Positions 41,992-44,465 of a DNA stretch of 64,000 nucleotides are shown here, in pieces. The DNA comes from Streptomyces bathyalis (GTDB lineage Bacteria > Actinomycetota > Actinomycetes > Streptomycetales > Streptomycetaceae). Both the position numbers and the translations under genes were made by a program. Each line of letters opens with the position of its first letter. The stretch's first letter is position 1. The notes under the pieces are model-generated. The model searched no databases. It was not told the DNA's origin and saw only the letters and a list, made by a program, of their open reading frames with translations. Location of the stretch: the NCBI RefSeq assembly GCF_015910445.1, contig NZ_CP048882.1, positions 2,480,001 through 2,544,000 of the forward strand. The letters run 5' to 3'.

Positions 41992-42669
41992 TCAGTACCA
42001 GTTGTTGGCCTGCCAGAAGTCCCAGGCACCGCAAGCGCTGCCGTACCGGTCGTTCATGTAGTTCAGGCCCCACTTGATCTGGGTGGCGGGGTTGGTCCGC
42101 CAGTCGGCCCCGGCGGAAGCCATCTTGGAACCCGGGAGCGCCTGCACGAGCCCGTAGGCACCCGAACTGGCGTTGCTCGCCCGGTAGTTCCAGCCCGACT
42201 CGCGCTCCACGATCTCCGAGAAGCACTGGAAGTTGGACCCGCCGACGATCTTCTGGGCCATCGACTTGACTTCGGCAACCGTGTACGAGGACTGCGCGGG
42301 GAAGTCGCCTGCGTCCGCGCGAGCGGCGGAACGGCTCGCTTCGGCGGCCTCGCGCTCCTTGGCCGCCTTCTCCTCGGCCGCCTTCTTGGCCGCGGCCTTC
42401 TCGGCTGCCTTCTTGCGCGCTTCTTCCGCTGCGGCCTTCTTCGCCTCGGCGTGGGCGGTGTCCGCCTGCTGCGTCAGGGAAGCGGTCTGTACCCGGGCCT
42501 GCTGACCCGCCGGTATGTCTTCGAGGAGCGTCGAGTCAGCAGCGGTGGCCTCGACATCGTTCGTCGTCTGACCCTGCTGACTTCCGGAGGCCACACCGAC
42601 GACAGCGCCGACGGTGGTGACCGCGGTGGCGGACGCCACTGCGAATCCCCGGACGGAGATCCGAGTCAC
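41992..42669 (-). CDS. Secreted transglycosylase SLT-domain protein
   Basis: 225 residues. A Sec-type signal peptide (VRGFAVASATAVTTVGAVVG) is followed by an Ala/Lys/Glu coiled-coil linker (AEAKKAAAEEARKKAAEKAA) and a C-terminal lytic-transglycosylase-like domain: FSEIVERESGWNYRASN with catalytic Glu, SSGAYGLVQALPGSKMASAG and KWGLNYMNDRYGSACGAWDF. It probably cleaves peptidoglycan in growth or spore germination. GTG 42669 is preferred because AAGGA lies 6 nt upstream; an ATG at 42684 is in frame. Its leader has unusual potential secondary structure. Confidence 0.92.
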   Translation of the reverse strand: MTRISVRGFAVASATAVTTVGAVVGVASGSQQGQTTNDVEATAADSTLLEDIPAGQQARVQTASLTQQADTAHAEAKKAAAEEARKKAAEKAAAKKAAEEKAAKEREAAEASRSAARADAGDFPAQSSYTVAEVKSMAQKIVGGSNFQCFSEIVERESGWNYRASNASSGAYGLVQALPGSKMASAGADWRTNPATQIKWGLNYMNDRYGSACGAWDFWQANNWY

Positions 42670-42687
42670 ACGGTTTCCTTCCAACGT

Positions 42688-42910
42688 GCCCGCTCGATGA
42701 CCGCGCGGGCGCCGATCGTGCCCCTGGCGCTGACCTCCTGGAACTCGTCACCGGAGATACGGGCCCGTAGGACCCTCCTTGGGCTGGGAGGGCCGCGTGG
42801 TTCTTCGGGCGGCATACGGCGTGACTGCTTTTCAGTTCTGTATTGCTCTGTGGTGCAGCACCATTGCTGGTACCGGTGTGCCGTATGCGGGGCCTGACAG
42901 GAACCACACC
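42688..42910 (-). ncRNA. Candidate structured 5' leader (riboswitch-like) of the transglycosylase gene
   Basis: Read on the minus strand, several complementary segments nest. GTGGTTC (42901-42907) pairs with GAACCAC (42797-42803), enclosing GCATACGGC (42880-42888) with GCCGTATGC (42812-42820), enclosing TGGTGC-a-GCACCA (42851-42863). GGTGTG (42905-42910) can instead pair with CACACC (42875-42880), which excludes the outer stem. Downstream follow a CCCTCC/GGAGGG hairpin (42770-42794), the palindrome TACGGGCCCGTA (42758-42769) and GCCCGC/GCGGGC (42688-42710) near the start codon. The central part is less GC-rich than its neighbours. I could not match the c-di-AMP (ydaO) consensus. Region 42911-43087 shows nothing else. 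Confidence 0.5.
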
Positions 42911-43087
42911 CTGCCGGAAGCGAGTGGGCTGAGGCAATTCTGTGTTGAGTGGGATAGGTCACACCTGGTTTGGCTGTCACATTGCCCGGAAACACGCGCG
43001 CGCGGCGGTTCCAGGGTCTAAAGTGCCGCGGCCCAACGGTCCCCCGAACGAGGGAACGAGGGCGGAAAAGCCGTTGAACAGCGTTGA

Positions 43088-43115
43088 CGCCGGCCGCCCT
43101 TGAGGACGGCCGGCG
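43088..43115 (-). terminator. Hairpin after phoH
   Basis: CGCCGGCCG (43088-43096) pairs perfectly with CGGCCGGCG (43107-43115) around a 10-nt loop, 31 nt after the phoH stop. No T run follows. Confidence 0.7.
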
Positions 43116-43145
43116 CCTGACACCCGGCAAACGGGATGACTCCCC

Positions 43146-44465
43146 TCAGATGTGTGTCTCTTCGAGCATCTCCGTCACAAGCGCCGCGATCGGCGACCTT
43201 TCGGACCTGCTGAGCGTGATGTGCGAGAAGAGGGGGTGCCCCTTCAACTTCTCCACCACGGCGACGACTCCGTCGTACCTTCCCACGCGCAGATTGTCCC
43301 GCTGTGCCACGTCATGGGTGAGAACGACCCGTGATCCGGCGCCGATCCGGGAGAGAACCGTCAGCAGCACGTTCCGCTCCAGCGACTGCGCCTCGTCGAC
43401 GATCACGAACGCGTCGTGCAGCGACCGGCCGCGGATGTGCGTGAGCGGCAGCACCTCGAGCATGCCCCGCTCGACGACCTCCTCGATCACCTCGCGGCTC
43501 GTGACCGCGGAGAGCGTGTCGAAGACGGCCTGCGCCCACGGGTTCATCTTCTCGGCCTCGGTGCCCGGCAGATAGCCGAGATCCTGGCCGCCGACCGCGT
43601 ACAGCGGACGGAAGACCATCACCTTCCGGTGCTGACGGCGCTCCAGCACCGCCTCCAGCCCGGCGCAGAGCGCGAGCGCACTCTTGCCCGTACCGGCTCG
43701 GCCTCCCATGGAGATGATGCCCACCTCGGGGTCCAGCAGCATGTCCAGAGCGATGCGCTGCTCGGCGCTGCGGCCCTTGATTCCGAACGCCTCGCGGTCG
43801 CCCCGTACGAGCTTGATACGGCCCTGCGGCGTGACCCGCCCCAGCGCCTTCCCCTTCTCCGAGTGGAGCACCAGGCCCGTGTGGACGGGGAGTTCGGCGG
43901 CCTCCGCCACGAACACGCTCTCGGCGGCGAAGAGTTCGTCGATCTCCTCCCCCGGCAGTGTCAGCTCGGACATGCCGGTCCAGCCGGACTCGGTGATGGC
44001 GAGCTCCGCGCGGTACTCCTCCGCGTGAAGCCCGACGGACGACGCCTTGATGCGCAGCGGCAGATCCTTGGAGACGACAGTGACGTCGAACCCCTCTGCC
44101 TGGAGGTTCCTCGCCACGGCGAGGATCCGCGAGTCGTTGTCCTCCAGCCGGAAGCCGGCGGGGAGGACACCCGGGTCCGAATGGTTCAGCTCGACGCGGA
44201 GCGAACCGCCCACGTCGCCGATCGGAAGGGGGGCGTCCAGGCGGCCGTACTTGACGCGGTATTCATCCAGCCTCCTCAGCGCCTGCCGGGCGAAATAGCC
44301 CAGTTCCGGGTGATGCCGCTTTGCCTCCAACTCGGTCACGACGACGACGGGCAGCACGACTTCGTGCTCCTCGAATCGGTCCATCGCCATCGGGTCTGCG
44401 AGCAGCACGCTGGTGTCGATGACATACGTGCGCCGGTCGGCTTCGTTGCGCTTTTTGCTTGTCAC
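43146..44465 (-). CDS. PIN-domain/PhoH-type ATPase
   Basis: 439 residues. The N-terminal PIN nuclease domain (1-150) has [12 protein letters not shown] (D17), VVTELEAKR and [14 protein letters not shown]. The C-terminal PhoH ATPase has Walker [17 protein letters not shown] (254-), [36 protein letters not shown] and [21 protein letters not shown]-PhoH (PhoH2-type) proteins are RNA helicase/ribonucleases. GTG 44465 is used; the preceding codon is also GTG. Confidence 0.94.

Follow-up and report, generated by a model that had tools for sequence, protein, structure and literature searches.

Streptomyces must time the cutting of their cell wall during growth and germination, and the RNA control described for their wall-cleaving enzymes, in the accessible part of PMC10117811, is that exerted by c-di-AMP through ydaO leaders. 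A second, unrelated leader RNA would mean that another signal feeds into wall hydrolysis. Among candidates of other kinds, PMC11109978 counts four riboswitch candidates in S. avermitilis and describes the dauA and pntA motifs as including Shine–Dalgarno nucleotides, as far as its main text goes. Here, we analysed a stretch of 64,000 nucleotides from Streptomyces bathyalis (contig NZ_CP048882.1, positions 2,480,001 to 2,544,000; hereafter the window), whose host genome comprises one contig of 7.38 Mb. A sequence-only reading had proposed a switch-like leader upstream of a cell-wall transglycosylase gene in this stretch. We find that this leader is a structured RNA, conserved across its family and outside the catalogued RNA families, that probably controls when the SLT-domain transglycosylase (SLT) is made; searches for a ligand and reporter assays could be directed at it straight away.

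Materials and methods

The SLT-start motif served as the anchor for extracting leaders, and 152 of 163 loci had it; the 11 loci without this anchor were L067, L071, L079-L085, L142 and L143. A total of 148 distinct leaders were thinned to 135 at <96% identity and to 54 at <90%. Alignment A2 held 50 of these 54 (without L039, L073, L077 and L121). Twenty fetched relatives brought the 54 to 74, with L228, L232, L234 and L245 omitted as near or exact copies; L232 re-entered in a later 100-locus set. All 74 and all 100 model-fitted loci match, but these loci had been chosen as carriers of the element.

Compensatory evolution was counted on 167 distinct leaders (of 174 rows), with a tree and parsimony, as independent two-sided changes that keep pairing (co-changes). 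The 167-leader alignments were fitted to models containing PII, PIII, PV, PVI, P7 and P1b, from which PI and PIV were absent, and the tree was built from the same columns, two points that call for care in reading the counts; the 5′ D2 end of L244 is misaligned there, and the rows of genus g119 are shifted by one at PI. Genus labels such as g119 and g122 are the tool's own numbering. Relatives were sought with two covariance models, R1 of the 5′ domain (42901-42793) and R2 of the 3′ domain (42768-42666). Genus g122 escaped a regex screen and was picked up, with weak matches, by the covariance search.

Results

On the minus strand, the leader separates a PIN-PhoH gene, whose frame ends at 43146, from the SLT gene, and forms a conserved structured stretch of ~230 nt upstream of the GTG start codon (Table 1); the list of open reading frames starts the SLT frame at an earlier TTG. 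A TTGC.. / CAnnnT-type pair of putative promoter boxes, 17–19 nt apart, stands before it in 147 of 148 leaders, with a spacer of 18 nt in 140, and from the −10 box at 42913-42908 transcription is predicted to start near 42901. A pattern scan of 42600-43200 for sigma-70 promoters and terminators found nothing; the −10 box of S. lividans is reported as TAnnnT in the accessible text of PMC8079986. In the eight commonest forms of the upstream palindrome, which make up 135 of 148 leaders and set a lower bound, TGTGA always begins 26 nt 5′ of the −35 box. A BldM site was rejected, as the palindrome differs from the BldM Group I consensus TCACcCgnncGgGTGA given in the consulted part of PMC4125116, and a SigE promoter was likewise set aside, with GGAAT and SLT both absent from the text of PMC6767563. 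Further upstream, a covarying 12-bp hairpin that probably terminates the PhoH transcript is present in most of the 135 leaders (43006-43048 on the minus strand, a position that holds in relatives; 109 double-change cells) and is poorly kept in the window's own sequence.

Table 1 Features of the SLT leader and its surroundings, in window positions
Feature	Position	Strand	Remark
Imperfect palindrome GTGTGACCTATCCCAC (commonest form GTGTGAGCTTTCACAC)	42949..42964	minus	conserved; possible operator or activator site
Putative −35 box TTGCCT	42932..42937	minus	consensus only
Putative −10 box CAGGGT	42908..42913	minus	9 nt before GTCAGG in 143/148 leaders
Predicted transcription start	42899..42902	minus	from −10 position
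PI 5′ strand GCCCC	42889..42893	minus	long-range closing helix; RNAalifold, 54 leaders
PI 3′ strand GGGGC	42720..42724	minus	partner of 42889..42893
PII 5′ strand GCATACGGC	42880..42888	minus	9-bp core stem
PII 3′ strand GCCGTATGC	42812..42820	minus	partner of 42880..42888
PIII hairpin in PII loop	42856..42875	minus	covarying pairs 42873-42869/42862-42858
AACTGAA (AACTnnA-like) in PII loop	42831..42837	minus	invariant or nearly so in A1, A2
PIV 5′ strand GCCCG	42806..42810	minus	long-range helix
PIV 3′ strand CGGGC	42763..42767	minus	four pairs also from RNAalifold
Variable hairpin GCGGCCCT...AAGGAGGG	42773..42796	minus	enclosed by PIV; no U-tract after it
PA 5′ strand CACGCGG	42793..42799	minus	alternative partner of start-codon region
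PA 3′ strand CCGTGTG	42667..42673	minus	contains GTG start codon 42669-42667
PV 5′ strand ATCTCC	42753..42758	minus	covarying helix
PV loop GTGACG (most: GTGACC)	42746..42751	minus	can pair with PVI loop
PV 3′ strand GGAGGT	42733..42738	minus	partner of 42753..42758
PVI 5′ strand GCCCGC	42705..42710	minus	hairpin
PVI loop GGTCAT (most: GGTCAC)	42697..42702	minus	can pair with PV loop
PVI 3′ strand GCGGGC	42688..42693	minus	partner of 42705..42710
Putative Shine–Dalgarno sequence of SLT gene (AAGGA)	42676..42680	minus	GGAAGGA invariant in A1, A3
SLT-domain transglycosylase gene	41992..42669	minus	PF01464, Pfam E 3.7e-07; start GTG 42669-42667

The arms on which the sequence-only reading had built its switch are all present on the minus strand: GTGGTTC 42907-42901 with GAACCAC 42803-42797 (7 bp), the 9-bp stem of 42888-42880 with 42820-42812, an inner hairpin at 42875-42856 within that stem, and GGTGTG 42910-42905 with CACACC 42880-42875. 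The segment around them (42796-42912, 117 nt) folds at −45.1 kcal/mol (z −3.43), better than 200 of 200 dinucleotide shuffles; over its full 266 nt the leader stands out only slightly (z −1.84) and is equalled by 5 of 200 shuffles. Inverted repeats fold similarly on both strands, and with the opposite strand of the 117-nt segment scoring nearly as well (z −3.15), folding alone cannot fix the strand, whereas evolution does. Covariance in homologous leaders divided the nested arms. The 9-bp stem is 99.6% paired in the 54 diverse leaders, with two-sided changes in four of its nine pairs, and stands. The 7-bp outer stem is not conserved, as it is 55.3% paired in the same leaders, a value reached by 205 of 500 shuffles; its 5′ arm falls at the conserved promoter, no further 3′ than the predicted start of transcription, and with that start near 42901 would be almost wholly untranscribed. 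Nor is the GGTGTG/CACACC alternative conserved (59.2% paired; 51 of 500 shuffles reach this), and controls slid by +2 and −2 give 56.0% and 65.6%, the latter higher than the pairing itself. The proposed switch, in which this alternative excludes the outer stem, is thus contradicted by homologous leaders that keep neither pairing; a different pair of competing folds, a conserved core against helix PA, was found.

The firmest evidence for an RNA lies in three helices. Co-change events numbered 17 in PII, 21 in PIII and 13 in PV, far outside the range of the controls: across 13935 five-pair helices the highest count was 6, and among those 17 helices that were at least 95% canonical it was 3. PII was 99.7% canonical over 1502 cells, with its co-changes spread over six pairs, three breaks, and 22 different combinations of its arms among the leaders. 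PIII was 95.8% canonical over 760 cells with 33 breaks in the model-fitted alignment, compared with 85.9% on the MAFFT alignment, and is shortened in L151, L161 and L171, while PV was 99.1% canonical over 1001 cells, with changes in five pairs and eight breaks. On plain MAFFT alignments, pairing was 99.3-99.6% in PII, 85.7-85.9% in PIII, 98.4% in PV and 98.1% in PVI, and RNAalifold, run unguided on the 54-leader alignment, returned PI, PII, PIV (four pairs), PV and PVI together with a further helix, Q. Across PII, PIII, PIV, PV, PVI and the loop–loop contact, G-U outnumbers A-C by 218 to 35, a tolerance of wobble that marks the sense (minus-strand) RNA as the one that folds. On these comparative grounds, it is established that numerous compensatory changes have maintained PII, PIII and PV in the minus-strand RNA, and the existence of a conserved RNA fold comes close to being so.

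The remaining helices are supported less strongly. Judged by this measure alone, co-change counts for PVI (three) and PIV (two) fall within the control range, that for the loop–loop contact was one, and P7, PA, PI and P1b had none. PVI was 98.6% canonical over 999 cells, its co-changes lying in two pairs, with 40 one-sided changes that kept pairing and ten breaks. PIV was 98.8% canonical over 829 cells, with nine one-sided changes kept and six breaks, and occurs in compensated variants (ACCCG/CGGGT in two rows, ACCCG/GGGGT in four and GCTCG/CGAGC in two); by eye, L244 has GCCGG/CCGGC, and L247 and L251 show no evident counterpart. The variable hairpin within the arms of PIV is absent from L073; across 135 leaders it shows 31 double-change cells, at 42790-42787/42779-42776. 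With a shift of one allowed, 156 of 167 rows can form all five PI pairs and the other 11 can form four; PI was 98.2% canonical over 835 cells without co-change, the g119 rows being shifted by one there. Its variants are ACCCC/GGGGU in three g119 loci and GCCCC/GGGGC in most, with ACCUCC/GGAGGU (L247, L251) and ACCCUC/GGGGGU (L252) seen by eye in g122. Both PI and the loop–loop contact are mostly invariant; the six pairs of the latter were 96.9% canonical over 1001 cells with 21 breaks (96.0% in a separate count), and all six are possible in 153 of 167 rows. By eye, neither the GUGACC nor the GGUCAC motif sits in its loop in L247, L251 and L252. Seven rows of alignment A3 (L037, L074, L075, L121, L153, L160 and L167) carry an insert between GUGACC and the PV 3′ strand that by eye is often hairpin-like.

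In the architecture that emerges, PI would close a loop holding PII (with PIII and an AACU-type loop), PIV (around the variable hairpin) and PV, and PVI would follow 3′ of this PI-closed loop, ending a few bases before AAGGA. The alignments favour PVI and the long-range helices PI and PIV as real, and as parts, with PII and PV, of a single nested multi-branch core that stops just short of the Shine–Dalgarno sequence, although less strongly than they do PII, PIII and PV. Two other helices were not adopted: P7 (CAGCG 42732-42728 / CGTTG 42686-42682) was 95.5% canonical but had 22 breaks and no co-change, and P1b, a nearly invariant extension inside the outer stem, is incompatible with PIV, whose variation is compensated. 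Helix Q would pair the 5′ end of the RNA, YCUGUCAG (42901-42894), with the Shine–Dalgarno stretch CUGGAAGG (42684-42677) on the minus strand. Both of its sides are conserved, the energy of its 8-nt duplex does not set it clearly apart from shuffles (0.16 of which are as low as the mean), there is no clean covariation, and we offer this pairing as an idea only.

Of 295 Streptomyces genomes, 291 have a DNA match to the 266-nt leader. R1 matches 121 genomes of this genus, with no miss in the genus among the rows listed; none of the 15 listed genomes from other families of the order matches, and 57 further non-matching genomes are unlisted. In a class-wide draw of 296 genomes, R1 matched 30, of which 28 belong to the same genus and two are weak (E near 0.01). 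R2 matches 244 of 249 genomes of the family, in 16 of 17 genera. All four loci of g122, the genus that the R2 screen missed, have weak matches to R1 (E 0.0008-0.035) and R2 (E 4.6e-5-0.04) before an SLT gene, and in G764, the fifth R2 miss, neither SLT locus matches R1 or R2 at E up to 1. Each of the 20 family loci that were read, from 18 genomes, precedes an SLT homologue, second copies included. Two genomes from another genus of the family, G716 and G740, each have two copies of leader and SLT gene (L238-L241), with the fold conserved in both. The window genome is single-copy, with one significant match each for R1 and R2 (next best E 0.16 and 0.58) and no match to either at E up to 1 at its other SLT-like loci (L002-L004). 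An exact 14-mer occurs in at least 120 stretches of viral contigs, but a 14-mer is too short for this to be meaningful. Because the leader accompanies one gene type only, gene context gives no clue to a ligand.

Rfam 15 had no family at gathering anywhere in the window. Below gathering (E up to 5), 42300-43400 gave only mir-8303 (E 2.2) and CC2171 (E 2.6), both at chance level and neither a riboswitch, and at E up to 0.5 the 12 homologous loci gave a single match, at E 0.17, which in L226 does not fall within the element, and none to RF00379. The search thus assigned the leader to no catalogued riboswitch, RF00379 included. This negative is informative, as the same RF00379 model finds three ydaO riboswitches elsewhere in the same genome (L177-L179), the first of them before an M23 peptidase gene. 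Our literature search, in which supplements and most subscription papers were out of scope, found no description of the SLT leader; it is not among the candidates described in the main text of PMC11109978, where 24 of 33 weak ones appear only in the supplement, so a prior listing is possible.

Discussion

The leader combines a compensatory structure with a constant position 5′ of the same gene. We regard its structure and distribution as solid, and its standing as a new cis-regulatory RNA outside Rfam 15 as supported. Of the two identities that the sequence-only reading had put forward, a new class of regulatory RNA is borne out by compensatory evolution, conservation across the family, constant placement before the SLT start and the absence of an Rfam match at gathering. 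On balance, we lean towards a cis-acting structured 5′ leader, conserved in the Streptomycetaceae, that controls the initiation of SLT translation.

How it might do so is suggested by PA. The minimum free energy (MFE) fold of the window leader (−97.8) pairs CACGCGG with CCGUGUG and buries the start codon with a probability of about 0.9. PA crosses PIV, and a simple nested structure has room for just one of the two. The window core lies above the MFE by 2.1 kcal/mol (42901-42655), or by 5.7 on a slightly shorter stretch, with any loop–loop or ligand energy excluded, and in unconstrained folding of the window leader PI, PIV and PV form at 5-7% and PVI at 16-17%. Core and PA folds often lie close in energy: over 54 leaders the energy of the core minus that of PA had a median of 0.9 kcal/mol (range −17.3 to +11.8), the core being lower in 22, a comparison that carries no control of GC-rich near-MFE folds. 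A transcript starting near 42901 may, in Streptomyces, adopt either a core fold or a competing PA helix that pairs the GTG start codon; formation of the core, assisted by a ligand, a protein or an ion, would make the start codon accessible, and loss of the core would let PA close it. PA was 93.2% paired in 54 leaders with covariation not beyond that of shuffles, and 89.4% canonical in 167 leaders; six or seven of its seven pairs are possible in 132 of 167 rows, yet in only 5 of 23 rows from other genera. With no covariation or co-change, 55 breaks, this scarcity in other genera and its loss from L073, PA is at most a lineage-level platform, and for the same reasons the core as the open state and PA as its partner are a weak proposal.

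What the core responds to may be considered separately. It is possible, if doubtful, that the leader represents an undescribed riboswitch class, in which a multi-branch aptamer with a possible loop–loop contact senses a wall-related or signalling molecule and gates the start codon of the transglycosylase; if true, this would be a second form of RNA-based control of cell-wall hydrolysis besides c-di-AMP and ydaO. A leader bound by a protein or RNase, with the fold as a binding or processing site that sets mRNA stability or translation without a small-molecule ligand, is a rather improbable alternative: the single-gene context and family-restricted range fit a dedicated protein site as well as they fit a riboswitch, and the conserved loop letters AACU and CAGGGGC could be protein contacts. 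Simple autoregulation seems unlikely, however, because the SLT transglycosylase is a wall enzyme, and a multi-branch core with a possible loop–loop contact looks aptamer-like.

Transcription attenuation is unlikely. The hairpin at 42796-42773, or PVI, would then act as a terminator under the control of the upstream fold, like the ydaO leader of rpfA, which acts through premature termination according to the available text of PMC10117811. That inter-domain hairpin does show covariation, but it has no U-tract and is missing in L073, 42600-43200 contains no terminator-like site, and PVI stops a few bases short of the Shine–Dalgarno-like sequence. Very improbable is a DNA element or a small upstream coding frame rather than an RNA: promoter and palindrome are rigidly conserved, and a frame ending at a TGA that overlaps the start codon stays open for at least 49 codons in 97 of 148 leaders, but several helices show compensatory changes with wobble on the sense strand, no upstream frame is kept since the distance from GTCAGG to the start varies modulo 3 (53, 52 and 43 of 148), and long open frames would be expected at such GC content. 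The divergent ydaO-type element, the other identity suggested at the outset, can be dismissed as far as family membership goes, for although Streptomyces wall hydrolase genes do carry ydaO leaders (PMC10117811 and PMC8079986, in the parts available), RF00379 has no match at gathering (38 bits) in the window nor, with E allowed up to 5, in 42300-43400, and scores 74.6, 57.9 and 51.8 bits at its three sites elsewhere in the genome.

A cis-acting leader controlling SLT translation, as preferred here, invites comparison with several described systems. Like the ydaO/yuaA RNAs (RF00379) of Streptomyces hydrolase genes such as rpfA, it is a structured leader before the gene of a wall-cleaving enzyme; unlike them, it has no covariance-model match and no terminator is seen. 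The yjbJ motif of Streptococcus, as presented in the main text of PMC11109978, is similarly a candidate leader, standing before a gene said there to encode a lytic transglycosylase, but consists of two hairpins, the second terminator-like, and belongs to another phylum. With Streptomyces-metH (RF03063) and Streptomyces-metK (RF03076), curated families of Streptomyces cis-regulatory RNAs in the accessible part of PMC8079986, the SLT leader shares its kind, although the window contains no match at gathering to either of them. The dauA, livJ, pntA and asfR motifs, which the main text of PMC11109978 presents as structured RNA candidates centred, as this one is, on Streptomyces, differ from the SLT leader in adjoining other genes.
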